Origin: Zeaxanthinibacter enoshimensis
Lineage (GTDB): Bacteria; Bacteroidota; Bacteroidia; Flavobacteriales; Flavobacteriaceae
Direction: 5' to 3'
DNA: 64,000 bases
Assembly (NCBI RefSeq): GCF_004362865.1
Contig: NZ_SNYI01000001.1
Location: forward strand, 1,384,105-1,448,104
Shown: piece by piece, positions 1-26,092 of the stretch
Position numbering within the stretch: position 1 is the stretch's first letter
Layout of the letters: the number at the start of each line of letters is the position of its first letter
Made by a program: the position numbers and the translations under genes
Notes under the pieces: model-generated
What the model was told of the DNA's origin: nothing
Seen by the model: only the letters and a program-made list of their open reading frames with translations
Database searches by the model: none

Positions 1-1836
1 CATGATAAAACCAACGATTGGGCAAAGGGGAAGCGAATTGATAAAAACCTTTACACAGGCGCAATTCAGATTTATAGCGGTAAAATTGAAGAGTTTGAAG
101 ATGAGAATATCGTGCAGGAGCCGGAAGTTGAGTATGCTGGAATCTTTGAAAATTTCTCACACGAACAACTTTTAGCGATAGGGGTGCCCTCAGAATGGGT
201 GGAAACTGTTCAGAAGATAACAAGTGAGGAACAGTTTATGAAGCTATGGGATGTTCTTCCTGATGATGCCATTGAAAACCTTGGAATTCTGCTAGAAGGA
301 GAGATTGATGTTAAAGTTTTAATCAAGCAAATTGAATATAAGGCAAGTCAGCTCCCAGAGAAAACCGAAGAGCTTATCGAAGTTCAACCAGGGCTGCATG
401 TAATTAGTGAAGACGATAAACTCATAGAAGTCCTAAATAAGGATATTAATGTGTTTCGCTTTTATCTGCACCCAACGCAACATTATTTGGCTTATAATAA
501 TTTTTCGGGTTCCAAAAAGGTTACAGGTAGTGCAGGTACTGGGAAAACCGTGGTAGCCTTGCACAGAGTGAAATTTTTAGCTGATCAATTAAAAGAAGGC
601 GATAAACCTATCCTCTTCACCACCTTCACTAAATTCCTAATTAAGAATATCCAGGCGCTTTTTGCAGAGCAGAACATTCCCGCTTCTAAACTTGAAGTCC
701 ATAATCTGGATAAACTAGCATTTAAGCTTGCAAAGGAATTGGAAATAATTCCTAGATCGGTTAAACCCATCGATAGCAAGGATGCTTGGTCTTTCTTCCT
801 CAGAAGAAATCAGGAAATTAAAGTGAAGCAAAGGTTTCTGGAAAAAGAATATGCTGAAGTGATATTAAAATATCATGTCACCAAAGAGGAAGAGTATTTA
901 GGTGTTCCAAGGGTTGGGAGAGGTGCTCAGTTATATGATAAGGATAGAAGAAAAATTTGGAAAATTTTCCAGCAATATGAGGCTTATCAGAAATATTCTA
1001 AACGTTATACCCGTTCAGATGTCTTCTTTCAGCTTTGCAGACATCTGGAAAGATGGCCAGAAGATCGCCCCTTTAGTCATATAGTTTGTGATGAAGTGCA
1101 GGATTTCGGCAACTTGGAATTACGGCTATTACGCGTTTTGGTAAACGAAGGCCCCAATGATCTCTTTTTGGCAGGTGACCCTTTTCAGAATATATATCAG
1201 AAGAATACTACGTTTAGTAAATCGGGTATAAGTATTAGAGGAAGAAGTACGCGTTTAAAGTTTAACTATCGTACAACTGAAGAGATACGAATCCTCGCAA
1301 CTAATATGATTGCCGGCCTAGAGGTTGACGATTTCAGTGGAGAAAAGGCGACAACGCTGGGAGATACCAGTATACTCTCTGGGGAAGAGCCGAAATATAT
1401 AACATGTGATACTAGATCAAAGGAGTTAGAATACATTAAGAATTATATTAAAGCAAGTTTTGGAAGCATTGGCCTCCATGAAATATGTATTACCGCCCGA
1501 ACAAAAAAAGAAGCTATGGAGATCTATGAGTACTTGTCCGACAACCGCCTTCCAGTAAAGATGTTGGTAAACTTGGAAAATCTCTCAGATTTGGACAATC
1601 ATGTGGGTGTTTCAACTATGCATGGAGTAAAAGGTATGGAGTTCAAAACCATGATCATTACAGGTTTTTGCAAAGACCATTTTCCATATAAACCCTATAA
1701 GTTTTCTACATGGTCCGAAGCTGAGCAAAAGGCTTTTATTCAGTCAGAATATCTTCTGTCGTATGTAGCATTTTCAAGGGCCACCTCCTATCTCCTAATT
1801 ACGGGAGTGGGAGATAAAGTAATGATGCTGACCTAA
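1..1836 (+). CDS. UvrD/Rep-like superfamily 1 helicase, 5' partial
   Basis: The reading frame is open to the first base of the window, so the gene starts upstream; the GTG at 112 is only an internal codon. The first residues (HDKTNDWAKGKRI) resemble, from memory, the end of the RelE/ParE-like N-terminal domain found on some UvrD-like helicases. The Walker A motif is GSAGTGKT, starting at nucleotide 526. The Walker B motif is VCDEVQD near nucleotide 1090. Near the C-terminus are VSTMHGVKGMEF and YVAFSRA, the UvrD C-terminal motifs. The predicted role is ATP-driven DNA or RNA unwinding. Only 38 bases separate it from the next helicase gene on the same strand, which suggests one transcript. Its link to the downstream DarT module is inferred from spacing alone. 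Confidence 0.85.
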   Translation, partial: HDKTNDWAKGKRIDKNLYTGAIQIYSGKIEEFEDENIVQEPEVEYAGIFENFSHEQLLAIGVPSEWVETVQKITSEEQFMKLWDVLPDDAIENLGILLEGEIDVKVLIKQIEYKASQLPEKTEELIEVQPGLHVISEDDKLIEVLNKDINVFRFYLHPTQHYLAYNNFSGSKKVTGSAGTGKTVVALHRVKFLADQLKEGDKPILFTTFTKFLIKNIQALFAEQNIPASKLEVHNLDKLAFKLAKELEIIPRSVKPIDSKDAWSFFLRRNQEIKVKQRFLEKEYAEVILKYHVTKEEEYLGVPRVGRGAQLYDKDRRKIWKIFQQYEAYQKYSKRYTRSDVFFQLCRHLERWPEDRPFSHIVCDEVQDFGNLELRLLRVLVNEGPNDLFLAGDPFQNIYQKNTTFSKSGISIRGRSTRLKFNYRTTEEIRILATNMIAGLEVDDFSGEKATTLGDTSILSGEEPKYITCDTRSKELEYIKNYIKASFGSIGLHEICITARTKKEAMEIYEYLSDNRLPVKMLVNLENLSDLDNHVGVSTMHGVKGMEFKTMIITGFCKDHFPYKPYKFSTWSEAEQKAFIQSEYLLSYVAFSRATSYLLITGVGDKVMMLT

Positions 1837-1874
1837 TGATTAACATATGACTAACCTACCGATAGCACCAACCC

Positions 1875-4800
1875 ATGAAAGAATTCCAAGTATGGCAATC
1901 GTATATTGATGCCCTTAACATTCTCACCGAGCAGTACGAAAACCCTTTTCGAATAAAGGTGTTAAAAACTAAAGAAGAAGGGGTCATAGACTGTAGGTTT
2001 GTGGAAGAAGATCAGAAACGACTTGTTTATGAAGCGCTAACGGGAGTTTTCAAAGATTTAACATTTGAGGACGTCCGTTTCAAAGAAAATCACCTGCTTT
2101 ACCCGACATCTGGGAGGCTTAACAGGACTAATGACGCCAAGGATACCCTAGATAACCTTGCACGGGCACATCACTTTACTTATTCGCTAAATCCCGGATT
2201 TTCAGCAACCATAAACTATACCCATAATCACTTACAGGAATTATTCGATCAAGTAGGAATTAAGGAGAGAGCAAAACTCGATAAGCCGGTTTACCTCACC
2301 ATTGAAGAAATAGAAAAGATAGACGGCGTTCTTGAAGACTACCCTGAAGTTACCCGGGCTACAGATATAGGGGCGGTCTTTCAGTTAGAAATGAAAGATG
2401 AATATATGGCGCGGCAGTGTGAACATACCCTGAAGTTCATATGGAAACATGCAGGAGTAAAGCCGGGAGCTGTGAAAGTAGATTCTTACGATATCTATTA
2501 CAAGAACAAGTATTTTTTCAAGGATTTTGTCGAGGTAATTAAGGAGAGTACCCCATATTACAACACCATTCATTTAGTCACTTATGAAATACAACCAGAT
2601 GCTTTCAATGACTTCTTAAAGACCAAAAAACACCAGAAGGTGTTTTTTAGGTCAGAGCCCCATGCTAATGATAATTCCAATAATAAGAGTCAGATATTAC
2701 CCGACCCTCAAGGAAATAAATTTGTCCGAAGATTTAAAAATGATATTGCAAAGGAGGAGTTGAATGACGAAATCAGACATTTTAAAAGGGTTCTAGGGCG
2801 ATTTTTTAAGGAAGAGGATATCACCGTAACCCATGAACAAGTATTTAGAACCTCCGGGAAGCAGTTGTTCAACTCCTATATTGAATATATTAAAGCTTCA
2901 CTGCCGGAAACATACCAGGTAAGTCTGAATTCAGAGACGCTTTCTTTTGACTTTCAATCGGCAGAAGAGTTAGATAAAAAGATTGAAGCACTTGAAAGGT
3001 ATTCCTGGATTAATCTAAAGCAGCATGAGAATGGCCATAAATTTAAGGTGTACTTTGAAGTAAGTACGCCTTTGGTTGACTTAGAAAGGCGATTGTCAAA
3101 ATCTTCTAAAATTAAAGCGGTCCTAAATAAAGACCAGAATCAATTACAGGTTTTTGGAATGTTGGCTGATCCTGCCCAGCAAGAGATTCTTAAGGCAAAA
3201 ATTCTAAATGAATACGATAAAATTGATGTGAAGTATTGTAGCCTCAAATGGAATGAGATCGGGAATGGATATTTAAAATACTTCTTGCACTTTGATGAAG
3301 AATCCTTTCAAGAATACACTGAAAGAAAGTTCATGAAATTGAGGGGGGGGCTAGTTAAAGATTACGAGTCTGAGGCTCCTTTTGGGATGATTCGCTATGT
3401 AAATTACCCCTACCTCGAAATCGAATTAGAGGTGGATAGTGAGGAGATACTTTTAGAGGAGACTTTAACCGTTGCGGGCTCTCTAAAGGGAGAGAAAGAT
3501 AAAATAAAACGCCTTTACGATGCTATTGAGGCTATTCAAAGCGATTCCTCAATATCTATAGTAAATCCGAATCTTAAGGATGGACTTATTGATTCAGCCG
3601 AGGTGAAATATGACGTTGATGAAATTAAAAGGACCTTGGAGTATTGCAATTTGTACCGAGAGGTGGAGGCCGACTTACTCAGTAGTTTTATCAATGAGAG
3701 TCAGAAAGAGGCCATCGCCAAATCACTATTGGCTGAGGATCTTTTTGTGGTCCAGGGACCTCCGGGTACCGGGAAGTCTACCGCTATTGCCGAATTGATC
3801 TGGCAACACATTCGATTGCAGGGCGCCCACCAAGAAAAATATAAAATATTAGTGACTTCAGAGACTAATTTGGCGGTGGATAATGCTTTGGATAAGCTTC
3901 GAAGTGATAGACATATGCTAATTAAACCTATTCGTTTTGGATCGGAAGATAAATTGGACCGGGAAGGATGGCGATTTTCGTTAGAAGCCATTAATGCCTG
4001 GGGTAAAGATGTTACAGCTTATGAAGATACTTTAATTGTGGACGATTGGGTAACATTAATTAGCGATCGAAGTGAAGAGCAAGCTCAAAGTGGTTATTTA
4101 AAGCTTTGGAAGGAACACCTTTTAGAAAAAGATAAAACGGTTAGGGAATTTTTTAGCCAAGCCTATTTGAAGCACTGTAATGTGGTCGGAGCTACCTGTA
4201 GTTCTATTGGAAAGCTTAACTCAGAAGGAAGGTTTACCCGCTTTTTTCAGGATTACTGCAACGTTTACCACGCAGAAAAATTAGAAAGTTATAAGTCTGA
4301 TAGAAGTTGGAATACTATAAAGGCTTTGAATGGATTGAGTGTTGAATTTGACTTGGCCATACAAGATGAGGCTTCAAAAGCTTCACCACCGGAACTTATG
4401 TTACCCTTTGTGTTTACTAAAAAAGCAATCGTGATTGGTGATCACCGCCAATTACCACCTATGATCGACACTAATGAGTTTATTGACAGTCTGGAATATT
4501 TAAAAGCTAAAGCTCAGGAAGGGGAGCAGCGTCAAAAAATTAAACGCTTACAGAGGTTTATAAAACGGAATTCCAGGTCATTTGAGATTTCTCATTTTGA
4601 GCGTTTGTTCAAAGGAATTCATCAAAATTACAAGACAACCTTCGATACACAATACCGTATGCACCCGGCCATTAATGAGACTATAAAACAATTTTACAAA
4701 GGCGATTTTGAAGGAGGAAAAGATCTCGAATGTGGCCTGGACATGAATTGTGTAGACGATCCTAACCTGGATAATATACAAAGCCGTTACCATGGAATTA

Positions 4801-5408
4801 CCAATAAGGCAGATACTCATGTGATGTGGTTTGATGTGAATACTCCGGAAGTAAAGCAAGGAACCAGTCGTGTTAATCCCGGAGAAGTGGAAGCGATAAA
4901 ATGGATTGTTGAAAGATTAAAGGGAAACGAGCGTTACAAGCATTTTGTCGACCATTGGGGTGATCATTTACAAGCAGAAAAGGAGTTGGGAATTATTACT
5001 TTTTACGGTGCTCAGGCTAATTTGCTAAAGAAAAACTTGCCGCAGGATATTCAGGCTAGGGTATCTCCAGTAGATCGATTCCAGGGAATGGAACGCAATA
5101 TTGTGATCGTCTCGATGGTCCGTAGTAATCGTTTAGCAGAACATCCGGGTCAGGAACCGGATTATGAAATGTTCCCCGATTTGGGCTATGCAAAGAATAC
5201 CAGCCTGGGATTCGCAGAATCTCCCAATAGGCTCAATGTAGCTTTGTCCAGGGCAAAAAGACTATTGATCGTGGTGGGTAATAAAGACCATTTCAGCAGT
5301 AAACAAATTTATAAAAATGTTTATGAGACCATCTTGAAACATCCTCAGGGAGAGGTTTGGTCGTTTAGTAAGGGAGATCTAAAAAAGGTGAGGAATGGAA
5401 ATAGTTGA
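1875..5408 (+). CDS. Large SF1 helicase of the UPF1/DNA2 type
   Basis: The protein has 1177 residues. The first roughly 600 residues show no domain I recognise. The C-terminal half is a superfamily 1B-like helicase: Walker A GPPGTGKS at residues 628-635, Walker B-like DEAS at about 831-834, VIGDHRQLPP about 30 residues later, QYRMHP at about 926, a DRFQGMERNIVIVS motif, and NVALSRAKR near the end. These are the motifs of UPF1, DNA2 and AAA_11/AAA_12 helicases, which unwind RNA or DNA using ATP. Its last 14 bases overlap the start of the W-repeat/DarT gene, so the two are very probably translationally coupled. Family assignment is firm; the substrate and the role of the N-terminal half are unknown. 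Confidence 0.88.
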   Translation: MKEFQVWQSYIDALNILTEQYENPFRIKVLKTKEEGVIDCRFVEEDQKRLVYEALTGVFKDLTFEDVRFKENHLLYPTSGRLNRTNDAKDTLDNLARAHHFTYSLNPGFSATINYTHNHLQELFDQVGIKERAKLDKPVYLTIEEIEKIDGVLEDYPEVTRATDIGAVFQLEMKDEYMARQCEHTLKFIWKHAGVKPGAVKVDSYDIYYKNKYFFKDFVEVIKESTPYYNTIHLVTYEIQPDAFNDFLKTKKHQKVFFRSEPHANDNSNNKSQILPDPQGNKFVRRFKNDIAKEELNDEIRHFKRVLGRFFKEEDITVTHEQVFRTSGKQLFNSYIEYIKASLPETYQVSLNSETLSFDFQSAEELDKKIEALERYSWINLKQHENGHKFKVYFEVSTPLVDLERRLSKSSKIKAVLNKDQNQLQVFGMLADPAQQEILKAKILNEYDKIDVKYCSLKWNEIGNGYLKYFLHFDEESFQEYTERKFMKLRGGLVKDYESEAPFGMIRYVNYPYLEIELEVDSEEILLEETLTVAGSLKGEKDKIKRLYDAIEAIQSDSSISIVNPNLKDGLIDSAEVKYDVDEIKRTLEYCNLYREVEADLLSSFINESQKEAIAKSLLAEDLFVVQGPPGTGKSTAIAELIWQHIRLQGAHQEKYKILVTSETNLAVDNALDKLRSDRHMLIKPIRFGSEDKLDREGWRFSLEAINAWGKDVTAYEDTLIVDDWVTLISDRSEEQAQSGYLKLWKEHLLEKDKTVREFFSQAYLKHCNVVGATCSSIGKLNSEGRFTRFFQDYCNVYHAEKLESYKSDRSWNTIKALNGLSVEFDLAIQDEASKASPPELMLPFVFTKKAIVIGDHRQLPPMIDTNEFIDSLEYLKAKAQEGEQRQKIKRLQRFIKRNSRSFEISHFERLFKGIHQNYKTTFDTQYRMHPAINETIKQFYKGDFEGGKDLECGLDMNCVDDPNLDNIQSRYHGITNKADTHVMWFDVNTPEVKQGTSRVNPGEVEAIKWIVERLKGNERYKHFVDHWGDHLQAEKELGIITFYGAQANLLKKNLPQDIQARVSPVDRFQGMERNIVIVSMVRSNRLAEHPGQEPDYEMFPDLGYAKNTSLGFAESPNRLNVALSRAKRLLIVVGNKDHFSSKQIYKNVYETILKHPQGEVWSFSKGDLKKVRNGNS

Positions 5409-8400
5409 TAGGATATGCCATAAAGGCTTGGTAAAATTAGGACTTAAGAATTATAAGTTGAAATACCGGAAGACTGAAGCGCTCACCAAGTACGAACAGG
5501 CAATTATTGGATTACTTCATGAGCAGGGTGGGCTAATGGAATGGAAAGAATTAGGGGAAATCTTAGGTTTTGCTGTAGCTGAGAATTTGGATGAAGGCGT
5601 AAGAAAGGACTATGCCGAAGTGGGAATTTTTGAAAGTTACCTGGATGCTTTACAAAAAGTCCATTTAATTAGTAGGGATGAGGATTGTATTCTGCTATCC
5701 GAATGGGGTGAGGTAGCGGTTCAGGAAGGGGTAAAACACCTTTTTTATAATGGCCTCATTCGAGTGCCCGGATTCATGGAGTTGCAACAACCCGATCCAC
5801 CTATAATAGTCTCCTTCGCAGAACTCGGATTGGAGCTGCAGTTAGAAGAAGTAAAAGAATTTGAATCTCCCTGGCCTATAGCATCCCGCATGGAGGCCGT
5901 CGATGATGATGATGTTAATAGGCTTATCAATATGGGCTTCCATTTTCAGAAAAATATTTTTATCGATGTTATCGAGGAATCGAATGGAGCACTAAGAAAA
6001 GATGTGGATATCAATTTTGAAATGGATGGAAAGCTCCTGAAATGCTACTTTGAGGATCATTTTATAGCGTCACTTACAGATTTGTTTAATTATGAGGGCA
6101 ATGAAGAATTAGCTAAGGAGGTTAAATTGCAATTAGGCCTAAAAGCCTATTTAGAAAACAATAAAGCCTATCGTTTAGATGAGCTTTTGATATATGAATC
6201 GATCATCAATTGGGATGTCTTCTTTGAAACTTATGATGAGGAATTTGATTGGAAAGCAACCACATTAAGAAAGCTCGGGGAGCTTGGCGTTTCATCTAAG
6301 CTAATTTCCCAACATTCCCCCGAAGATGTGCTCTATGAGCAATTAGAAGAAAGTGTCAATGTAGTCGATTGGCCAATTATTACTGGACGGCTTTCCCTGG
6401 ATTTTATTTTAACCCATTTACCGGAACTGTATTGGGATGCAACCGTTTTAGCAGAGCGTATCACTGTAGAAGTATTTAAAGATTACTACCTGGAATTAAA
6501 AGCTTTGTCAGACTTCCCCTTCACACAGTATTACAGACAGTTGGACAAGGAATTTCTCTCAGAACAATTTGACCATTTACCAGATATCACAGCATATATC
6601 ACACGATACAAGCCAAACTGGCTTGCAGAATTCTTAGCTCTGTACCCAAATGGCCCATGGAATTGGACACAGATTGGTCAAAATATGCCTCTGGAAGATT
6701 TATTTTCATTATCCGAAGAGCATAAAGTACATTTCCCATCGATACTCGTACTACAACAAATTATTACGGAGGAATTACACATATCAGGAGACGAATTTGG
6801 TGCGCTTATCAATCGTATACCTAAAGCGGATAATAATCCTTTATTAAATAGGCAACACCCGTCCAACATGAACCTTGCGGAGTTAAAGCTCCTGGATGGG
6901 AAAAACTTGATTTTTTGGGGAGATAGCACCGTGCCCGGCTACGAGATGAATACACATCAGGAATGGAACTACGAGATAATTGATTATTTCCAGGATAAAT
7001 GGAATTATCCAGAAGCCATACAATTTCTCGAAGAGCATTTGCAAGATGTAGAGGTGATTAGAACCATACCCTTAAATTGGAATTATTCAGGAATTTCAAA
7101 AAATGCTTATCTCGTCAGTGAAAAGCAGGTTTTAGAGACCTATGGTGCCAAGCTTGACCCTAATGAGGTGATACAGGTATGGTCTCCTAAGGATTGGAAA
7201 AGGCATTTGCCTTGGGCACTATCGCGGTTTGATGATATTTATAAGGAACATTGGGTTGAGTCAGCTTCTTCTACAATAAGTATTGAAGATGTATTGTGTC
7301 ATCAAAAGGAATGGATTGAGGAGATAAATGAGGCCGTTGAGTGGGATCTAATAGTGTTTAATACAAAGATTTCATTTTTGCATGAGCAGATGTGGGAGAT
7401 ATATGAAGTACTTCTAGAATTGGGTGTTTACGAACGGGTTAAAACCCCTCTGACCTCAAAATTAAATGTAGAGTTTCAGCTGGAAAATTGCGATTTTGAT
7501 TGGGATTGGAAGGTTGTGACGGAAAATGCCTTAATAAAAGATATCCTTAATGAGGAATCCTTGTATGAGTTTGCACATTTGTGGTACTGGAATGTAATTC
7601 TCGAAAATTATTATACTGAAGAAGATCTTCTCAAAGCTCATAAGTTACCGGAAATTGCAACACTTATTGCCCAATCGGAAAACGAAGAATTTATCGATAA
7701 GGCCTGGAGATACATTACCGAAAACTACCCTAAACATTTATTGTGGGAAGATATTGGAAAGACTATCGCGATGCAGGATATTTTCAGGTGGGATTGGAAT
7801 CTGATTAGTAGTACAAATCGAATATCCCTGGATAAAAATACCTTATCGCACTACAGGAATAATATCAATTGGGATCTTTTATCAGAAAATGAAGTAATTA
7901 ATAAACTGTTTTATAAAGACACCGAGCTATTTGATGGCACTAATGATTGGATAGAGTATGTTCTGGGATATTTGATCGAATTTAAACAGTATTGGAACTT
8001 TCAGGGTTTGTCCAAGGTTTCTAATATCACCTGGAATGAGACCATTATCCAAAAATTTAAAGATCATTGGGACTGGCAAATACTTTCCTCTTCGGCATCA
8101 AACTTTCTGACCACAAAAAAGGGTAATAAAGTAAAATATAATACAAAGATATTTAGTAAGTATATCGATCAAATCGATTTTAATGTGATCTCGCAACGAG
8201 ATGACATCCAATTTGACTTAGAGTTTGTTAAAAAATATGATAATAAGTCTTGGAATTGGAATGAACTATCAGGAAATCCTGCGGTTAAATTGGATAAAAA
8301 GGTTTTACTGGGGGACTTAAAAAATAAGCCTTGGAATTGGTTTTCCTTATCCCAGCATCCCGATTTAGAATTTGATAATACAGATCTTCTGGAAATGCAT

Positions 8401-10092
8401 GATAGGGATTTAGATTGGGGGTATTTTTCTTCTCAAAACTGGATCAACGCAGAGACGGTTTGTGCCCTCGAAACAAAACCTTGGGATTGGCATCAACTAT
8501 CGGTCAACCGAAATCTTCACCTCTCTACAAACCTACTTAGAATATTTGCTACGAATCATGCTGATGAGGTTTCCTGGGAGGCTGTTTTAAAGAATGTTAA
8601 TCTGGATTTGAATGATGAAAATCTGATGTTGCTATCTGCCATAATCGAAGATAATTCACATTGTTGGGGGATCCTGAGTTCACACCCTAAATTAGATTTC
8701 TCCAATTTAAAGGCCGATCATCTTTTAAAATATTCTTCTTACTGGAATTGGGAAGTGCTGCTAGAAAATTGGAAATTGGATTTTAATGATGTGGACAACT
8801 TAAAAAGGTATGTCTCTTTTATCGATTGGGGTGAATTGTCGAGACACCATAAATTCAGTCCGACCTTTGAAATTCTTGAGGCATTTAAAAACCTGTTAGA
8901 TTGGAGATTCCTTTCGCCTAAGGTGCTTAATGATGTTTATAAAATTGAAAGATTTAGTCAATATGTCAACTGGGAAGTGATTTCCGAAAAAATGGACTTC
9001 GATGGAAAGCTGCCCTTTGTGAAGCGTCATATTGCTAAATTCCACCTCTCCCGGCTACAAAACAACCCCACCGTGCCCCCGGAAATGGCAAGGTTTATCA
9101 AAGAGTACCTAAGGGCTAATATTGAAATTAGGTTTGTAGAAAAATTAAAGGAACAGGGTGGTCCTTGGGCTGGTAATGTATATCATTTTACGCACCTTAC
9201 TAATGCCTTGGCAATTATTAAGAATCGAAAAATTTTAAGTAGAAATAAGGCATCTGGTGGTGGTTTTAGTGATGCTGCAGGATCTGTCGTAAAACGAAGG
9301 GATGAGGCCCATAATTATGCCCGTTTTTACTTTCGCCCCCAAACTCCTACTCAATTTTATAATGAATGTTTAGGAAAAGACTTTCAGACTAATAGTTTCG
9401 AAAAGGCTAAAGATTTGGACTTGCCCAAATGCCCGATTCCAGTTTTCTTCAAGTTCGATCTTCAGGAAATATTGAGTCAAATAAAAGATAAATGTTTTAT
9501 AAGCGATGGAAATTTGCAGACCAATTGGGCCAAGATGGGTACAATTCAGAAAATGATACTTCACTTTGATTTTGAGGATGTTTATAGCACTATTGAACAT
9601 ACTTCAGATGATAATTGGAAAACATACTTAAATAAATCACAGCAGGAATTTTTGGTTCGCGATGAGTTTAATTTTTCGAATCTAACCAATTACGAAATTC
9701 TTGTAAAGACGCAAGGAGACTTACAACAACTGAAACAATTGTTAAGAAATGATCATGAAATCCTCTCTAAGTTACGAGTGGCTAATGGAAGGGATAAAAT
9801 TTTCAACAATCAGAATAGAGAGATATACTATACTATTAATGAAAATAAGTTGCAAGTTGATACAGATTACCTAGGAGATGGAAAAGTAAAAGGTAATTTT
9901 GTAATTGATCTGAGCAATTCTCGTTATAAAGTACGAGGAGGCACTGTTACAAATAGATTAGGAAATCGTATAACTTTTTATCCAGACATTGAGATCGAAT
10001 TCAAATCCGAGCTCTGTTTTTCTGTCAGTTTTAGTGATGAGTTAACCAATAAAGAACCCTGGGAGGTAATCAAATACTGTAATGTCCATTAA
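5395..10092 (+). CDS. Giant W-x-W repeat protein with C-terminal DarT-like ADP-ribosyltransferase domain
   Basis: The protein has 1565 residues. Residues 1-110 look like a winged-helix region (YEQAIIGLLHEQGG, then MEWKELGEILGF). From about 270 to 1235 the chain is built of units of roughly 25-29 residues carrying WNW/WDW followed by a leucine-serine step, for example WNWNELSGNP, WNWFSLSQHP and WDWHQLSVNR; the spacing suggests a helical solenoid. Residues of about 1255-1430 match the DarT family (DUF4433): YHFTHLTNALAII at 1263, LSRN at 1281-1284, ARFYFRPQTPTQ, and QQEFLV with E1418 where DarT has its catalytic glutamate. DarT enzymes ADP-ribosylate thymidine in single-stranded DNA using NAD+. 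The gene overlaps the helicase before it by 14 bases and the macrodomain gene after it by 11 bases. Usual DarT proteins are only about 200 residues, so the fusion is unusual. The DarT call rests on motifs only. Confidence 0.8.
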   Translation: MEIVDRICHKGLVKLGLKNYKLKYRKTEALTKYEQAIIGLLHEQGGLMEWKELGEILGFAVAENLDEGVRKDYAEVGIFESYLDALQKVHLISRDEDCILLSEWGEVAVQEGVKHLFYNGLIRVPGFMELQQPDPPIIVSFAELGLELQLEEVKEFESPWPIASRMEAVDDDDVNRLINMGFHFQKNIFIDVIEESNGALRKDVDINFEMDGKLLKCYFEDHFIASLTDLFNYEGNEELAKEVKLQLGLKAYLENNKAYRLDELLIYESIINWDVFFETYDEEFDWKATTLRKLGELGVSSKLISQHSPEDVLYEQLEESVNVVDWPIITGRLSLDFILTHLPELYWDATVLAERITVEVFKDYYLELKALSDFPFTQYYRQLDKEFLSEQFDHLPDITAYITRYKPNWLAEFLALYPNGPWNWTQIGQNMPLEDLFSLSEEHKVHFPSILVLQQIITEELHISGDEFGALINRIPKADNNPLLNRQHPSNMNLAELKLLDGKNLIFWGDSTVPGYEMNTHQEWNYEIIDYFQDKWNYPEAIQFLEEHLQDVEVIRTIPLNWNYSGISKNAYLVSEKQVLETYGAKLDPNEVIQVWSPKDWKRHLPWALSRFDDIYKEHWVESASSTISIEDVLCHQKEWIEEINEAVEWDLIVFNTKISFLHEQMWEIYEVLLELGVYERVKTPLTSKLNVEFQLENCDFDWDWKVVTENALIKDILNEESLYEFAHLWYWNVILENYYTEEDLLKAHKLPEIATLIAQSENEEFIDKAWRYITENYPKHLLWEDIGKTIAMQDIFRWDWNLISSTNRISLDKNTLSHYRNNINWDLLSENEVINKLFYKDTELFDGTNDWIEYVLGYLIEFKQYWNFQGLSKVSNITWNETIIQKFKDHWDWQILSSSASNFLTTKKGNKVKYNTKIFSKYIDQIDFNVISQRDDIQFDLEFVKKYDNKSWNWNELSGNPAVKLDKKVLLGDLKNKPWNWFSLSQHPDLEFDNTDLLEMHDRDLDWGYFSSQNWINAETVCALETKPWDWHQLSVNRNLHLSTNLLRIFATNHADEVSWEAVLKNVNLDLNDENLMLLSAIIEDNSHCWGILSSHPKLDFSNLKADHLLKYSSYWNWEVLLENWKLDFNDVDNLKRYVSFIDWGELSRHHKFSPTFEILEAFKNLLDWRFLSPKVLNDVYKIERFSQYVNWEVISEKMDFDGKLPFVKRHIAKFHLSRLQNNPTVPPEMARFIKEYLRANIEIRFVEKLKEQGGPWAGNVYHFTHLTNALAIIKNRKILSRNKASGGGFSDAAGSVVKRRDEAHNYARFYFRPQTPTQFYNECLGKDFQTNSFEKAKDLDLPKCPIPVFFKFDLQEILSQIKDKCFISDGNLQTNWAKMGTIQKMILHFDFEDVYSTIEHTSDDNWKTYLNKSQQEFLVRDEFNFSNLTNYEILVKTQGDLQQLKQLLRNDHEILSKLRVANGRDKIFNNQNREIYYTINENKLQVDTDYLGDGKVKGNFVIDLSNSRYKVRGGTVTNRLGNRITFYPDIEIEFKSELCFSVSFSDELTNKEPWEVIKYCNVH

Positions 10093-10774
10093 CTTTAAGA
10101 AAGGAAATATCTTCAATTCCAATGCGCAGACCCTGGTAAATACCGTAAATTGTGTGGGGGTTATGGGTAAAGGGATCGCCTTGGTATACAAGCTGAGGTA
10201 CCCAGAGATGTTTGACATTTATAAAAAGTATTGCAAGGATAAGTACATCGACATCGGTAAACTCTGGATTTACAGAGGAGAGGAAGGAGCACCCTGGGTA
10301 CTTAATTTCCCAACCAAGAATCACTGGAAATTTCCAAGTAGAATAGAATATCTCGAAAAAGGCCTGGAGAAGTTTCGGAATACCTATGCCGAACAGGGCA
10401 TTACCTCCATAGCTTTCCCGTTATTGGGTGCCCATAATGGTGGGTTGGAAAAGGAAGAGGTCATGGAGGTCATGACGAGGTATTTATCTATGTGTGATAT
10501 TGAAGTAGAAATCTACGAATTTGACCCCTCTATTCCCGATGATTTATTTGAGCATTTCAAGGCCAATTGGCAGCAGCTCGACAAGGCCCAAATTAAGGTT
10601 GAGACTAAGTTGCGAATGGATAAGATTAACTTAATCACGGAGGCCTTAGAGGACACTACCATCCGGTCGATGATGGATTTAATCAAACTCAAGGGAATTG
10701 GCATTAAAACCATGGAAAAGTGTTTCTCCTTTGTAATGAAGGAAAAAAATTCTCAAACTACTTTATTTGATTAG
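10082..10774 (+). CDS. DarG-like macrodomain protein, probable antitoxin of the DarT domain
   Basis: The protein has 230 residues. The N-terminal 150 residues are a macrodomain of the DarG type: KGNIF at 7-11, then NTVNCVGVMGKGIA at 20-33, WVLNFPTK, and AFPLLGAHNGGL as the second ligand loop. DarG macrodomains remove ADP-ribose from thymidine in DNA and so reverse DarT. The C-terminal 70 residues contain LIKLKGIGIKTMEKC (about 198-212), which looks like a helix-hairpin-helix DNA-binding element rather than the usual long DarG C-terminal domain. The start overlaps the end of the DarT-bearing gene by 11 bases, the expected arrangement for a coupled toxin and antitoxin. The next gene is convergent and its stop is 6 bases away. 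Confidence 0.87.
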   Translation: MSINFKKGNIFNSNAQTLVNTVNCVGVMGKGIALVYKLRYPEMFDIYKKYCKDKYIDIGKLWIYRGEEGAPWVLNFPTKNHWKFPSRIEYLEKGLEKFRNTYAEQGITSIAFPLLGAHNGGLEKEEVMEVMTRYLSMCDIEVEIYEFDPSIPDDLFEHFKANWQQLDKAQIKVETKLRMDKINLITEALEDTTIRSMMDLIKLKGIGIKTMEKCFSFVMKEKNSQTTLFD

Positions 10775-10780
10775 TGCTAT

Positions 10781-13700
10781 TTAACGGGCAAATACTTTTT
10801 CAATTATTATATCTATTTCCTTCATAGAGATGGAGCCTTTAGTTTCACCTCCTTCTACCTTAGATGGTTTATCTTCAGTAACTATTAAGGTTCCATTTTC
10901 CCCTCCACCTTGCTCATAGGGTAGGATGTTATTCTCTATATACCATTGATATTTCTCATCCCACCTTTTTTTGTATTCCGCGTCAAAAAGCATTCCGCAA
11001 TGCTCCCAGTAGTAAATCTCACCTGTATTATCATTTTCAATGGTAAAATCAGGAAGTTTTTCTACTTCCTTAATCACAAGTTTTTTCTCGTAAAGTGGAT
11101 TCAATTTTTTATCTAATAACCTCTGATAGATAAGAAGTTCACTTTTTGATCGTAACATTTTCCCATCTGTGGCTTGTTGAATTAGGTTTTTCTCTAAATA
11201 TTCTCCTTCAATTTCTACTAATTCAGGCTTTTCAAATAAGTTGGTCATCCGTTTTAAAGCGTCAGATTTTGTTGGAGAGGCTAGTTCTTTAATGTCAAAT
11301 GAATTCCCTTGCAAAAGCAGTATTACCTTATCTTTTTGCCGGGTAAGGGCCGTATATATCATTTCCCTTGACAGTAAAAAGCAAGGATTTGGAATGACTA
11401 TAAATACCTTTCCGAATTCACTACCCTGTGCTTTATGTACAGTTAAGGCATAAGCCAGTTCTAAGGGGTTATTTCCTTCTTCTGCAAATTCATAACCTTT
11501 AAAAGTATATTTAAATCCCTTTTGAGTTGTGAATTCAATCTCAGTATTTTTAGGTCGTCCCGGAAATTTCATTTTCGAAGTTTTAAATTGCCCAATCACT
11601 GTGCCGATTTCGCCATTTGCAATATAATTTATGGAGTTGACCGATGGCCAAACAGCATTTCGTTTAGAATTGACCAGGTTAATAACTTTATCCCCGTAAA
11701 CAATTTCTTCGAGACCAATTGGTAAAGGAATTTTACTGAATTTGGTTCTTGCATATTCTACCTTGTCCTTGCGAAACTGTTTATGAATCTTTCTATTAAT
11801 TGCACGTACTCCATAAATTTTTTCTCGAACCGGAGATAGAATTTGCCAGGATTCTACTTTTTTAACTGCTTCCCTAAAATTAAAATAGCGTCCATCAGAG
11901 GATCCCAAAGACTTGTTGAAAGTTTCAACATCCTCTATTGAGGACATTTTTAATTCATCTACCAATATTGCATTAAAGAGCTTTTCGAAATCTGATTCAT
12001 TTTCCCAGTGTTCAATTCTAAGATATTCTGTATTTGGAGTATTAATGAGATGATTGATAATACTATCCGCTCCGGGTTCAAGTGGTTCCCCACTAAACCA
12101 TTCTGCAAGTTGAATGTCTTCCCTTTTTGCACCTCCTTGACGACGTTTTATATTTAGCTCTGCATAACCTCTTCCTATTCGTGGAAATTGCGATTCAATT
12201 TGATTAGGTCTCAAATGATGAATAATATCTAGAAAGGGGCGACCCGCACCTATGGGAGGAAGCTGTCTATGATCACCCACTAATATAAATCGTTTAACAC
12301 CTTTCAAACAATCTAGAGTTGTAGCTAACATTTCTTCAGTAAGCATGGAGGCTTCATCTAAAATGACAGTCTGATAGGTGCCTTCGCAATATTGCTCAGA
12401 TAATTTATATTGTTGAATTTCCCCGTTGTAGCGCCCAAAGGGAATTAGAAATTGTGCTAATGTTTTGGCAGTAACCTTAATGTTCCTTGCTACCTCTTCC
12501 ATCCGTACCCGTGCTTTTCCTGTTGGAGCTAAAAAAAGAACTCCGTTGGATTCAATTTCTTCATGACCGGCCAGAATCGTTAATAATGTAGTTTTACCGG
12601 TTCCTGCAGGACCTATAAGAACCGAGAACCGATTCTCTGCAATTTCACGAAGTGCGATCGCTTTTTCTTCTCTGGCCCTTTTCTCCTGTTCATCCGGATC
12701 ACCTTCTGTATGTTCTGCTAAGGCTTTGTTGAGTAATTCTTTCCAATTTACTTTTATGGAATGTCGTTTAGCCTGAATTCTTTCACTTACGTTTTGACTT
12801 ATGATTGTACGGGTTTCTCGGTAACGGGCAAGTTGATAGGCCACTTCCCCGTTCTTCATCTCTTCGTTTACAATGTCAAGGTCAAAGCTTTCTTCGGCAA
12901 GTTCATAATAATCACTATTAATTTCGCAGGGAGGGGTTATAGCCAGATCTCTAATTTTTTTTATCAGTTCTTTGCGAGGCAGAAGGGTGTGGCCTTGTAA
13001 TGAAGCATATTCCAATTGTTGAATTGTAAGCGCCCTAATTCTATTGAGGTCATATGGGTCTTCAAGCAATAATTGATCAGGTAATAAATTGTTCTCGGCT
13101 ACCTTTAAAAATAATCCTAAATCAATTGTATTAAGCGAAACTGGGTTTAGCGTCTGCCTTAAATCTTCGTAAATTAAATATGGGTTTCTAAGATATTCTT
13201 CATCTTTCCTATTGACCCCGATTTTCTCTCTTTCTTCTTGTACAAAAAGTGTTTTAGCTTGTTCAATACTTAGGTCAAATCGGCTTAGTAAGTGCAAGTA
13301 CTTAATTCGAACTGGTTTGGATTTTTCTTTTAAACGCTTATATAGTTTTTTAGCTATATAGGGAATTAATTCATTAATCCTATCAGATAAAATACCTTCA
13401 GGGGAGTCCAGTACTTTCTCAAATAATTTCCATGGATTTTCATTTTCATCCTTAAGCTTATTTATGATTTCTGCTGCTACAAAATGTCCTTTTTCAATTC
13501 CAAATGCGCATAAAGCAGCTCCCATTCCGGGATAATGACCTCGGAGTTTTTCCAACTTCGCAATTTCATCATGTATCCATTTAATAGAAAAGGAATTATT
13601 TTCACCAATGCCTAATTCCTGAGCTTTCTCCAAAGATTTAACACAATCTAACAGCACTCGTATAGCACTATCATTGCTAACATGTTCTGAAGCATATGAA

Positions 13701-14527
13701 AATTCAAACTGCTTATCACCAGGCACAATAACGACTAAGTCGGCAACATCGAAACTCGGATTTTCCTTTTGGTAATTGATGGCTTCGTGATACGGTAGCA
13801 AGAAGCCGTCTTTATGGTGCTCTCTGATGGAATGCATTATCATATGCTCCCAATATGAAGCACCGAAGCGTTTGTTGCTGCCTTCGTATTGTCCGGAGGG
13901 TATTATTTTATTGATTCTACCCACTCCCGCTAATACCCTTCCTGACTCTTCCACAAACGGCATTTGTTTGGTATAGAAAAACACCAAGGAGGTATCCTCT
14001 TCGAGATGCTCAAAAAAGCAATTAAGTAAAGCTCTTTGATTTTCAGTTTCCTGCACCCAATTGTCGTTGCCATTCTTAGCCCAACTCAGTCTGGGTTCTC
14101 TATTCAGATCAAAGTTTAAATCAAATACCTCCGCCTTTTCCATTGCGTTTCCTTTAAGGAGCCAATGGTAAGGTACAGCAGCGCCCGAATAAGCTGGGAA
14201 ATTTACGGTAGTTGGTTTGAGGTGTCCATGTGATTCTGGAGAACTTTTTGCATAAGGATGCTTTAAAGTTCTTGTAAAAGAGAAGGGAGCCATGAATGTA
14301 GCACGCTCCCCAATGCAAACTGGAAAATTCTCCTCCTCTAAATTTTCAATTGATTTTCCAGCTAGAAGCTGTTCTTTTTCATCATCTCTGTTTAGTGCAC
14401 AATTTTTTAGAACCAAACAGGCACCGTTGGCTTGTGGGTTATTGCAAATTGTCCCATTCCACTTGTTGTCATGCCAAGGAACTCGAATGGAAAGATGTTT
14501 TAAGGGGTAACGTGGATTATGCGTCAT
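10781..14527 (-). CDS. RecD-like SF1 helicase with C-terminal nuclease-like domain
   Basis: I place the start at 14527, where the protein begins MTHNPRYPLKHLSIRVPWHD; an in-frame ATG at 14608 adds 27 residues that look non-conserved. Counting from 14608, Walker A is GPAGTGKT at 666-673, Walker B is LDEASM at 750-755, followed by VGDHRQLPPIG. A VHKAQGSEF motif and YTALTRQ further on are typical of the RecD/UvrD_C_2 C-terminal helicase domain. The last 130 residues carry RSKSE, LPDFTI and YYWEHCGM, a pattern I associate with PD-(D/E)XK-type nucleases fused to helicases; this part is inferred. The first 600 residues hold no domain I recognise. The gene converges on the macrodomain gene, so it is not in the same transcript. 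Confidence 0.82.
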   Translation of the reverse strand: MTHNPRYPLKHLSIRVPWHDNKWNGTICNNPQANGACLVLKNCALNRDDEKEQLLAGKSIENLEEENFPVCIGERATFMAPFSFTRTLKHPYAKSSPESHGHLKPTTVNFPAYSGAAVPYHWLLKGNAMEKAEVFDLNFDLNREPRLSWAKNGNDNWVQETENQRALLNCFFEHLEEDTSLVFFYTKQMPFVEESGRVLAGVGRINKIIPSGQYEGSNKRFGASYWEHMIMHSIREHHKDGFLLPYHEAINYQKENPSFDVADLVVIVPGDKQFEFSYASEHVSNDSAIRVLLDCVKSLEKAQELGIGENNSFSIKWIHDEIAKLEKLRGHYPGMGAALCAFGIEKGHFVAAEIINKLKDENENPWKLFEKVLDSPEGILSDRINELIPYIAKKLYKRLKEKSKPVRIKYLHLLSRFDLSIEQAKTLFVQEEREKIGVNRKDEEYLRNPYLIYEDLRQTLNPVSLNTIDLGLFLKVAENNLLPDQLLLEDPYDLNRIRALTIQQLEYASLQGHTLLPRKELIKKIRDLAITPPCEINSDYYELAEESFDLDIVNEEMKNGEVAYQLARYRETRTIISQNVSERIQAKRHSIKVNWKELLNKALAEHTEGDPDEQEKRAREEKAIALREIAENRFSVLIGPAGTGKTTLLTILAGHEEIESNGVLFLAPTGKARVRMEEVARNIKVTAKTLAQFLIPFGRYNGEIQQYKLSEQYCEGTYQTVILDEASMLTEEMLATTLDCLKGVKRFILVGDHRQLPPIGAGRPFLDIIHHLRPNQIESQFPRIGRGYAELNIKRRQGGAKREDIQLAEWFSGEPLEPGADSIINHLINTPNTEYLRIEHWENESDFEKLFNAILVDELKMSSIEDVETFNKSLGSSDGRYFNFREAVKKVESWQILSPVREKIYGVRAINRKIHKQFRKDKVEYARTKFSKIPLPIGLEEIVYGDKVINLVNSKRNAVWPSVNSINYIANGEIGTVIGQFKTSKMKFPGRPKNTEIEFTTQKGFKYTFKGYEFAEEGNNPLELAYALTVHKAQGSEFGKVFIVIPNPCFLLSREMIYTALTRQKDKVILLLQGNSFDIKELASPTKSDALKRMTNLFEKPELVEIEGEYLEKNLIQQATDGKMLRSKSELLIYQRLLDKKLNPLYEKKLVIKEVEKLPDFTIENDNTGEIYYWEHCGMLFDAEYKKRWDEKYQWYIENNILPYEQGGGENGTLIVTEDKPSKVEGGETKGSISMKEIDIIIEKVFAR

Positions 14528-14608
14528 AATGAAAGATATATTTTGAAAGGGATCTTCGGAGAGCGATAAGTTATATAATACTTTTAAAAAAGATATTGAC
14601 CAACACAT

Positions 14609-23318: not shown

Positions 23319-24080
23319 TTATTTTCCAAACACCCTCTCCACCAAATACCTTCTCGCCATCTCATCCGTAAACTTTCCTTTGTCTTCAGTCTGTTGCGTC
23401 TGCAACAATTCTTGTTGCGTTGTTGTTGTAAGTGTTGCAGTGTTATCAAAGGACAGGTGTGGCTCGAAATTATAGTTAAAATTCAGCATTATTATCACCT
23501 TCAGATGCCTTTCAAATTCTACAAATTCATGTAAATCAGGGCTTTCATTTATTTTTTCAATAGAAAATACTTCCTTGTCTCCAAATAGATACCAGAGGAA
23601 CAAATCCGAATTAGATAGGTTCTGTTGCAACGCCTGTTGTTGCTGTTGCAACGTCTCCAGCTTGCTGCTGTTTTCCACCTGGGGGATACCACATGGTCCA
23701 GCACTTTCTCTAAAAAACTGAAAATCGCCGTTGTTGATGGCCCTGAATAGCTGCTTGTAATGGATCAAGGCCTGCAATTTTTGAGATTCTTGGTCTAGTC
23801 CAAAGATCTCCTCATTAAACTGGTGAAAGAACTCCAGGTAGGTATGATCAATTTCTGTTGCATACTGTTGTTGCAGGAAGTTGTAAAAGTCGAGCACCAC
23901 TTCTTGCCTAGGTACCAAAATTTCTTCCGCTTGTTCTTTTACAAGCGGAATGGTCCCATTTCGTTGAAGGCGGATCCGAAATCTGGTTTCAAACAAATGT
24001 TGCTTTACCAACAACGTTTTTTGCCGGGCAGGGGAGCGGCGGTAGTATTCTTTTCTGCTTAGCACTCCAAAATACTTCAT
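23319..24080 (-). CDS. Glutamine-rich unknown protein coupled to the recombinase
   Basis: The protein has 253 residues. It contains a polyglutamine stretch at about residues 146-152 and further runs of Q and T near the C-terminus. The corresponding DNA is rich in TTGTTGC repeats, which can expand or contract. No domain is recognised. Its start overlaps the stop of the tyrosine recombinase gene by four bases (ATGA), so it may be an accessory factor of the recombinase, but this is inferred from position only. Confidence 0.6.
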   Translation of the reverse strand: MKYFGVLSRKEYYRRSPARQKTLLVKQHLFETRFRIRLQRNGTIPLVKEQAEEILVPRQEVVLDFYNFLQQQYATEIDHTYLEFFHQFNEEIFGLDQESQKLQALIHYKQLFRAINNGDFQFFRESAGPCGIPQVENSSKLETLQQQQQALQQNLSNSDLFLWYLFGDKEVFSIEKINESPDLHEFVEFERHLKVIIMLNFNYNFEPHLSFDNTATLTTTTQQELLQTQQTEDKGKFTDEMARRYLVERVFGK

Positions 24081-25855
24081 ATACCTGGTTTTTTAAAGAG
24101 ATGAGAATAGTCCTGTGGCAGTTGGGCATCAATACTACGCAGGTAGGATTCCAGCGCCTGCATGCTGCTATGACCGGTAATCAGCAGGAGTTTACTTTTT
24201 ACTTCAAACGGAGTCATGGTCTTGGCCATTTCCTTATATAAATTGGTAATGCTTGTATGCCGCCAGGAATACAAACCGTACTCGGGTCCTAAACCAAAAT
24301 GATCTTTTACCTTTTTGTATTTGCCTGTAAAGTAATTGCGCTTATCACTCTCTTTGGTCCCCCAGGCATGGCCAATACCCCAGGGAGTAATCAGATAGGA
24401 GTCTTTTGGATATTTTGAGAGATCCGGAAGTTCTTCCAGAAGAATGTCTGGCAGGATCTTAATTTTCACTTTTTTATTTTTTGCCTTTAGCTGAACCCGC
24501 TTGTGCTTTATATCAATGTCCTCAATTTTTAAGCGGCAAACTTCAATAGGGCGAAGTAGGGGATAGATAATGAATAACACCAATACATATAAAGTGGGCT
24601 CATTCTCCTTTATGTATTTCAACAGCTGTTGTTCCTGCTCCGGGGTGTAAGTCTTATTCCGGGTTGGAAGCGCTTTCAGTTTATTGATGTCCTGAATAAA
24701 GTTGTATTCGATAAGATCATTGTCCACCATGGTCTGGAAAACAGTACTAAGATCAGTTCTGGCGTTGTTGCGACTCCGGGGACTGGTGTCCATTAATACC
24801 TGGTTCAGGTATTTTACCACCACCTTTTTATTAATTGCTGTAACAGGTTGCCAGGCATAACCATTCTCACCCAGCCAGTATTCAAACTTCCGAATCCTGT
24901 TTTTAAATTTTACAAAGGAATCGGCCCCCAACATCTTTTCTTTTAACGACATTGCCAGGCTTATTGCCTCTTCAATAGTGACTACTCCATCTTCCGGTTC
25001 TGATCGCCCAACAGCATACTGTTGCTCGTTGTTGCTGATAATGTTGATGTCGGTATGGCCGTTGACAAGACTATCTGTTGGGTTTTTCCCGCCTGGTTGA
25101 ACCTCAGTATCCGGTTTGTTGATTTGTTGTTGATTTTTTGTTGATCCGGTCGCGTTTGTTGATTTCTCGTTGATTTTTTGTTGATCGCCCTGATTTTGTT
25201 GATTTGGCGTTGATATTTCGTTGATTTTTCGTTGATCCAGGGCGACAGATCGTTCTTCCGAGTGCACGTTTTCAGAGACGGATTCTTCAGCGATCGAATC
25301 TGTAGTTGATGTGCTGTTCCAAAAGTTGTTGGCCGGGAGGGTCTGTAAAACAACAGGCTCCGGAGCCTTGTCAACTTTTTTCGCTGCTTTTCTACCTTCG
25401 GGGTAGTGGCCCGAAAAGTAGGGTTGTGGGACACGATTTGCGATGGATTTCGGCAGGTAGTCCTCGCCCAGTATCTTTCGTATTAAATGGGTGTTATCCT
25501 GGTAGGGATCAAAACCATTTTTGAGTAAGAACAGTAGATTTCGTTTGAGCGGTTCCAGCACAGCCATCCGCTCTTCCTTAGTTTTAAAGGTGTTGGCGTG
25601 GGCTTTCTGATTTTTCTGGCGTACCATTTTTCCGGTTTCCGGATGCCGGAAGGAGAAGTAGACATGCCAGTATTTCTCCAAGGCCTTCTTGCGGATCTCA
25701 TCGGGGAGCATATCCCAGTCTTCTAATTTCACTCCCCCGGTGTAGATTTTGGGTTCGCTGTAAGCCTTTTTCATGTTAAAAACGTGTCCATTTTCGTGTA
25801 CTGCCTGTAAAAGTACGGTAAGTGTCATCTTCAAAAAAGAATTATGAGCACACAT
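24077..25855 (-). CDS. Tyrosine recombinase (phage-type integrase)
   Basis: The protein has 592 residues from this start; internal ATGs at 25828 and 25774 are possible. The catalytic domain at the C-terminus shows the tyrosine recombinase residues: R435 in LLRPIEVCRLK, a lysine-rich beta hairpin after it, R532 with H530s context in SWRHTS, H562 in ITGHSS and Y571 in ESYLR. The core-binding domain precedes it. Residues of about 210-265 are a low-complexity linker with repeats such as QQKINEKST and QQINKPD. Such enzymes integrate elements at specific sites, often tRNA genes. The gene lies 165 bases from the 3' end of an initiator tRNA gene and points into the island, so it probably mobilised the island. 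Confidence 0.9.
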   Translation of the reverse strand: MCAHNSFLKMTLTVLLQAVHENGHVFNMKKAYSEPKIYTGGVKLEDWDMLPDEIRKKALEKYWHVYFSFRHPETGKMVRQKNQKAHANTFKTKEERMAVLEPLKRNLLFLLKNGFDPYQDNTHLIRKILGEDYLPKSIANRVPQPYFSGHYPEGRKAAKKVDKAPEPVVLQTLPANNFWNSTSTTDSIAEESVSENVHSEERSVALDQRKINEISTPNQQNQGDQQKINEKSTNATGSTKNQQQINKPDTEVQPGGKNPTDSLVNGHTDINIISNNEQQYAVGRSEPEDGVVTIEEAISLAMSLKEKMLGADSFVKFKNRIRKFEYWLGENGYAWQPVTAINKKVVVKYLNQVLMDTSPRSRNNARTDLSTVFQTMVDNDLIEYNFIQDINKLKALPTRNKTYTPEQEQQLLKYIKENEPTLYVLVLFIIYPLLRPIEVCRLKIEDIDIKHKRVQLKAKNKKVKIKILPDILLEELPDLSKYPKDSYLITPWGIGHAWGTKESDKRNYFTGKYKKVKDHFGLGPEYGLYSWRHTSITNLYKEMAKTMTPFEVKSKLLLITGHSSMQALESYLRSIDAQLPQDYSHLFKKPGI

Positions 25856-26013: not shown

Positions 26014-26019
26014 TCTTAG

Positions 26020-26092
<73 letters not shown>

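Follow-up and report, generated by a model that had tools for sequence, protein, structure and literature searches.

DarT is known as a small toxin that is kept in check by DarG. In DarTG2 systems a thymidine-modifying DarT of about 200 residues stands alone next to a macrodomain DarG, and the reported effect of DarT is that replication stalls (PMC7003065). Helicases have also been found coupled to effectors: Mokosh (MkoA/MkoB, MkoC) pairs a COG1112/UPF1-like helicase with an effector, an STK domain being included in the definition of type I (PMC11672841; PMC10952713), and in Hachiman (HamAB) a helicase sensor is reported to be coupled to a DNA-attacking enzyme (PMC12278908). DarT2 has been tethered to a DNA-targeting module in the engineered Cas9 nickase fusion of append editing (PMC13368585). 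Here we analyse a 64,000-nucleotide stretch of the Zeaxanthinibacter enoshimensis genome (contig NZ_SNYI01000001.1, positions 1,384,105 to 1,448,104; hereafter the window) that encodes a module of three genes: a UPF1-like helicase of superfamily 1 (SF1), a giant protein with a solenoid of tryptophan (W) motifs that ends in a DarT domain, and a DarG-type macrodomain protein. This gene order recurs in many genomes, and we favour, with moderate confidence, the view that the conserved module is a defence system of helicase-gated DNA ADP-ribosylation. It resembles DarTG2 in its DarT fold, catalytic glutamate and adjacent macrodomain with catalytic lysine and stacking tryptophan, but differs in that DarT is the C-terminal part of a 1565-residue protein, that a UPF1-like helicase is its usual partner, and that its 230-residue DarG matches only the first half of a 338-residue model. 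The tether of DarT is man-made in the Cas9 fusion but natural here, and the effector of Hachiman, unlike that of this module, is a nuclease, with no ADP-ribosylation. The enzyme families are all known; their architecture, the coupling to a helicase, and a chassis shared with PIN and PLD-like effectors appear new. No helicase-linked giant DarT is described in the titles and abstract openings of open-licence PubMed Central (PMC) articles, a search that did not cover preprints, nor in the passages of PMC9503650 that were consulted. Existing tools may label such loci as DarTG, as PADLOC models score their DarT and DarG parts.

A preliminary description, made from the letters of this stretch, had listed four open reading frames (ORFs) on one strand, encoding a UvrD-like helicase, a UPF1-like helicase, a 1565-residue W-repeat protein with a DarT-like C-terminus and a macrodomain antitoxin-like protein. 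The coordinates were reproduced exactly (Table 1), with the first frame open at its 5' end at the window edge and, in order, a 38-base gap, a 14-base overlap and an 11-base overlap, and the identities held: Pfam matches UvrD (1.6e-17 and 8.4e-19), AAA_11/AAA_12 (4.6e-31 and 4.1e-39), PF14487 (5.1e-21; PADLOC DarT 2.1e-11) and Macro (1.6e-17). The DarT match lies above its curated threshold (75.8 bits against a cut-off of 22.5), and a structural comparison, which the preliminary description had named as a check, matched the C-terminal part to the DarT fold, the closest folds being DNA-modifying DarTs. The predicted catalytic glutamate, E1418, pairs with the alanine of the 7omv/7on0 chain in a second aligned segment that is weak on its own, and this position is a glutamate in 33/33 rows of an alignment of the window's domain with 32 of the 45 locus domains introduced below. 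The alanine is explained by 7on0 being, as reported, an E160A protein (PMC9967889); E160 of the Thermus enzyme is the equivalent of the catalytic E152 of DarT1 (PMC11543638). The domain is predicted to ADP-ribosylate thymine in single-stranded DNA (ssDNA).

In the long part of the protein that precedes DarT, the W-repeat region of the preliminary description is real: residues 251-1250 hold 12 copies of the motif [WLIFV][DNKSG]W..[LIVFM][ST], whereas 2000 shuffles gave 0.16 on average and never more than 2, and in an AlphaFold2 (AF2) model of residues 1-1195 (mean predicted local distance difference test score, pLDDT, 86.9; predicted template modelling score, pTM, 0.45) the solenoid part is almost entirely helical. 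Winged-helix is our own name, read from predicted structural elements, for the domain at residues 9-141. Besides the query there are 68 homologues (24-39% identical), 66 of them 1470-1990 residues long; 63 of the 68 align across at least 93% of the 1565 residues, a DarT match is present in 69/69 giant proteins with the query included, and many W positions are invariant across 29 aligned rows. A protein search with the N-terminus only, which scored just the 7991 candidates sharing most words, returned the query alone and was thus uninformative. Matches confined to the solenoid were seen in other frames of 450-890 residues in related genomes (L003, L005, L006, L066, L068, L070 and L071), so the repeat probably belongs to a wider family.

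The closest solved chains to the macrodomain protein are of DarG type (5m3i, E 1.1e-35; 5m31, 8.3e-33). The match to the canonical DarG model NF048014 covers just positions 1-170 of 338 and scores 193.6 bits, short of the cut-off of 250, and the C-terminal DarT-binding domain of canonical DarTG2 is not matched here. The C-terminal ~70 residues of the 230-residue protein carry a conserved GIGxKT motif, which we read as a putative helix-hairpin-helix. The canonical DarT-binding domain is itself predicted (PMC11543638). In DarG, K80 is reported to be the catalytic residue, and W83 to stack against the base of thymidine (PMC9967889); their counterparts K79 and W82 are present in 22/22 rows of an alignment of the window's protein with 21 of the 40 locus DarGs. 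The protein may neutralise DarT toxicity. In the helicase, the core occupies residues ~600-1150 of 1177, and a Pfam scan gave no match in the N-terminal ~600. Walker A K634, motif II D831-E832 and R1074 are conserved in 28/28 rows (27 of the 37 complete locus helicases and the window's), and R1126 in 27/28, with a gap in the remaining one. The nearest solved relatives are of IGHMBP2/UPF1 type.

The association of the three genes is not peculiar to the window. We identified 45 genome loci (L007-L051, all confirmed matches out of 80 pattern matches), of which 35 have all three core genes together. The helicase lies upstream of the giant DarT in 38/40 loci with room for it, a count that omits the contig-start loci L014, L018, L032, L035 and L047, and DarG lies downstream in 41/43, omitting the contig-end loci L014 and L019 and scoring L023, with 567 bases downstream, as a miss. 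With ORFs taken from the first start codon, 25/38 helicase-DarT junctions overlap and 34/38 are within 25 bases; L042 and L051, with split DarT frames, and L031 and L033, with wider gaps, were kept among the 38. L038 and L046 are near-copies. Ordinary DarTs behave differently. PF14487 was found in 38 of 395 genomes of a phylum sample, with giant frames in three (G000, the window's own, G387 and G558), and 29 of the 36 non-giant places have frames of 200-235 residues. As a short-DarT control we took 20 of these 36 places (the contig of L157 ends just upstream of DarT): a DarG-like macrodomain was present in 17/20, but this helicase was adjacent in 0/20, the only SF1 helicase matches, in L152 and L164, being weak and more than 6 kb away. 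A phage collection gave no match. Viral contigs gave five loci, which were excluded from the counts; the long form is present in L052, with its DarT gene split in two frames, and in L053, which shares match coordinates with L024.

A tree of 58 helicase cores, built by a quick method with Shimodaira-Hasegawa-like approximate likelihood ratio test (SH-aLRT) support only and after loss of two of 60 rows in which too little core matched (L107 and L113), places the 28 DarT-locus helicases in one clade (support 98). The helicases of three Flavobacteriaceae operons (L072, L073 and L076) join this clade with support 98, and three MkoA rows, sister to the module helicases and these cousins together, join with support 97; the tree warns of long branches, that of the L073 helicase included. 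The MkoA rows, chosen by best PADLOC MkoA scores and from genomes two of which also have an adjacent MkoB match, are closely related and do not delimit the MkoA group, and the module helicase lies outside them. Their position indicates that the window helicase is related to Mokosh. The effector here, unlike that of Mokosh, is a DarT with a DarG, and no NERD, PLD or kinase family was found in the three core genes (Pfam, E <= 0.1), so the system is not Mokosh; PADLOC likewise gave no MkoB family match in these genes. A separate search with the MkoB family returned generic NERD and PLD proteins in 77/296 genomes and was set aside as evidence.

In the three sister operons the partner of the helicase is a protein of 740-754 residues with the same N-terminal domain as the giant DarT, but with a nuclease-type effector and no DarT or DarG. 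By profile-profile alignment (hhalign) the N-terminal domain of the DarT family matches that of the PIN family with 98.5% probability (E 3e-15, 132 columns), and the PIN family matches the L073 protein with 99.8%. The L072 partner ends in PIN_4 (7.4e-22), whereas the L073 partner has no Pfam match and a PADLOC MkoB match (6.3e-7) over a stretch that we read as PLD-like. Of the 102 proteins that the PIN-type N-terminus matched, 95 have a precomputed PIN domain. The sister operons then carry a ~210-residue protein and a ~533-residue gene, the latter coding for an IetA-like AAA ATPase in L072 and L073, the two that were scanned.

The effector end of the module itself also varies. In 17 loci DarT is followed by a fused HD-type domain, of which there are two types (10 and 7 loci); three loci have the domain as a separate gene, and in two it precedes DarG in a fusion. 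It was not seen in 23 loci, nor in the window. The motif HD[IL]GK is present in 34/35 homologues that are over 1700 residues long or carry it, one assignment is a precomputed PF01966 (P0055), and presence or absence among the 28 tree rows needs at least six changes. We had considered a macrodomain fused into the longer homologues, which was rejected, as their extra 200-400 residues carry the HD-type motif. In L010 a scan showed that the separate HD gene has PIN_4 at its end; the corresponding gene of L012 appears, from its sequence, to be built alike. In L050 and L075 (G558) a Sacsin/GHKL-like N-terminus replaces the winged-helix domain and W-solenoid, and the DarG of L075 shares a single frame with the start of an HsdM, with no further restriction-modification gene seen there. 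With DarT on alternative N-termini and with varying partners, the DarT cassette behaves like an exchangeable effector. It is therefore possible, although we would put it at somewhat short of an even chance, that a UPF1-like sensor helicase and a winged-helix adaptor form a chassis with a swappable C-terminal warhead (DarT with DarG, PIN or PLD-like, with HD as an add-on), of which the DarT branch would deliver a mark solely to DNA opened by the helicase, rather than release a toxin restrained by its antitoxin, with DarG as a host-protecting eraser: nature's programmed DarT editor. An immune-system family built on this chassis would be new.

From these observations we infer a defence role for the module, with sensing and gating by the helicase. 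In this scheme, the helicase would engage nucleic acid that is abnormal or invading and unwind it, and the giant protein, anchored through its winged-helix-like domain and solenoid, would position DarT on the strand so exposed. ADP-ribosylation of thymines there would block replication, and any marks that strayed onto host DNA would be cleared by DarG. In the half or so of the loci that have it, the HD-type domain would act further on the mark or on the strand that bears it, and DarT would stand where the sister operons have a PIN or PLD-like effector. An opening of the target by the helicase is an economical reading because DarT needs single strands, its usual partner separates strands, and the checked core motifs are kept in 28/28 rows. 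The earlier proposal that sensing by the helicases or the solenoid triggers DNA ADP-ribosylation is plausible in this form, and its coupling of DarT to helicases stands for one SF1 helicase in many genomes, but not for the UvrD gene. That DarT here terminates a giant protein, which in dozens of loci is linked to a helicase, leads us to predict another mode of control, with a sensor helicase supplying the substrate. Given the specificity of DarT for ssDNA, this helicase-gating idea is directly testable, and the sister helicases with nuclease-type effectors could show how warheads are exchanged on a single sensor. Genome editing already makes use of DarT2 and may learn from a natural helicase-delivered form.

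Several observations weigh against helicase-gated DNA modification or narrow it. The DarT domain falls far short of the NCBIfam equivalog NF048013 (21.6 against a cut-off of 150). Foldseek with residues 1-1195 returned helical-repeat proteins, with a single match below 1e-3 at a template modelling (TM) score of about 0.1, and as there was no confident structural match we claim the repeat region only as an alpha-solenoid. The HD assignments draw on motifs, BLAST and weak Pfam matches (L025, E 0.0016, below cut-off). By record title the 45 loci comprise 40 Bacteroidota, 3 Bacillota, 1 Saccharimonadota and 1 Ignavibacteriota, and many are from metagenome-assembled genomes, with phylum labels that are possibly wrong. 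The helicase is missing from two of the 40 loci, L043 and L050, the latter having DarT-HD on its Sacsin/GHKL-like N-terminus, DarG and then an HsdM-like gene. In a Mantel test, made with no correction for host phylogeny, DarG tracks the helicase and DarT more weakly (r 0.35 and 0.36, values that 6 and 1 of 5000 permutations equalled or exceeded). Two loci that keep helicase and DarT, L041 (Spirosoma) and L151 on a Hymenobacter plasmid, gave no DarG; helicase and DarT are therefore the constant pair there, DarG is not an obligatory antidote, and gating, this suggests, does not rest on DarG alone. Finally, RNA is often the substrate of UPF1-like helicases and could be the target here too.

This last point leads to the main rival, which we regard as unlikely: that the helicase recognises phage mRNA and DarT modifies RNA, for example at uracil, blocking translation until the macrodomain reverses the mark. 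The IGHMBP2/UPF1-type relatives of the helicase would suit this, as would PIN and PLD-like sister effectors, which could cut RNA; the Mokosh enzyme has been called an RNA helicase (PMC11672841), and Thermus aquaticus DarG is reported to reverse uracil ADP-ribosylation in RNA (PMC13036486). However, the closest folds to this DarT are DNA-modifying, and DarT2 is reported to be inactive on RNA (PMC9967889). Less likely again is that DarT and DarG form a conventional toxin-antitoxin pair, the long part being a neutral extension and the helicase repairing or bypassing ADP-ribosylated lesions. The adjacency of DarT and DarG and the retention of K79 and W82 are as expected of such a pair, but near full-length alignment of the homologues and the invariant W positions argue that the long part is not neutral, ordinary short DarTs have no adjacent helicase of this kind, two loci keep helicase and DarT without a found DarG, and the match to the canonical DarG model is confined to its first half.

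A housekeeping role in replication control or DNA repair would be in keeping with the reported coordination of growth by DarT in Mycobacterium tuberculosis (PMC12170906); we consider it improbable given the patchy presence of the full-length gene (2/395 phylum genomes, the window's own included), its carriage on a plasmid (Hymenobacter) and on a probable island, and its defence-gene neighbours. The lowest probability is given to a system of four genes, with the upstream UvrD helicase as a component, for which the short gap and shared strand speak. The four-gene order of the preliminary description was not borne out elsewhere: three genes recur together, and a UvrD relative lies near DarT in 1/45 loci within fetched flanks of up to 10 kb (L016, two genes downstream of DarG), for which reason UvrD was rejected as a component. 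Apart from the window's own, one UvrD relative was found in 149 searched genomes (L187), a locus in which none of the three core genes was matched, and the relatives in L016 and L187 lie near a DruE-like helicase, as in the window.

Table 1. Coordinates of the module, its relatives and its surroundings; positions are those of the window unless prefixed by a locus handle.
Feature	Position	Strand	Basis or remark
UPF1-like SF1 helicase, 1177 residues, first core gene	1875..5408	+	Pfam AAA_11/AAA_12; PADLOC MkoA 334 bits
Giant DarT protein, 1565 residues, second core gene	5395..10092	+	ORF list, Pfam, homologues; 14-base overlap with helicase gene
N-terminal winged-helix-like domain, residues 9-141	5419..5817	+	Profile-profile match to PIN-type family; predicted elements
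W-motif alpha-solenoid, about residues 250-1240	6142..9114	+	Motif excess; AF2 model
DarT ADP-ribosyltransferase domain, residues 1263-1462, predicted catalytic E1418	9181..9780	+	Pfam PF14487
C-terminal beta-sandwich, residues 1475-1565, no role assigned	9817..10089	+	
DarG-type macrodomain protein, 230 residues, third core gene	10082..10774	+	PADLOC DarG 9.3e-59; 11-base overlap with DarT gene
Sister Flavobacteriaceae operons	L072:4160-12262, L073:4524-13067, L076:4667-12898		Helicase, winged-helix-PIN or PLD-like protein
Stand-alone HD-type genes directly after DarG	L010:11341-12498, L012:15248-16420		
DarT-HD on Sacsin/GHKL-ATPase-like N-terminus, 1940-1945 residues	L050:5681-14445, L075:9195-16351		
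N6-methylase-like, DruE-like, DpdE/DrmD-like and DrmMI-like upstream genes	L057:2891-17638		
UvrD helicase with weak ParE-like N-terminus, after those genes	L057:17860 to window 1836		
Same UvrD-like gene within the window, 693 residues in full, not core	1..1836	+	Starts 246 bases before window
RecD2-like protein, 1275 residues, convergent to DarG gene, ending 6 bases from it	10781-14608		PDC-S68 near full-length, 1508 bits
MutT-like NUDIX (PDC-S07) and Schlafen group 3 helicase (PDC-S41) in a single ORF	15020-17392		PADLOC
Tyrosine integrase adjoining tRNA-Met, right end of probable island	24077..25855	-	Pfam Phage_integrase 2.9e-8
tRNA-Met	26019-26092		

The ParE-like N-terminus of the flanking UvrD gene is below the Pfam cut-off (E 9.4e-4). 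The surroundings of the module are probably those of a tRNA-associated defence island, as the integrase, the tRNA-Met and a repeat together fit one: a 19-bp exact repeat occurs inside tRNA-Met (26043-26061) and ~43 kb to its left (L057:778-796), probably as att sites. The left flank of the island was not found in three same-genus genomes, and G+C climbs from ~36% to ~50% at about 24-26 kb. Downstream of the core genes PADLOC marks two defence candidates, PDC-S68 and PDC-S07/S41; the latter are candidate families that PADLOC models apart, joined here in one ORF.
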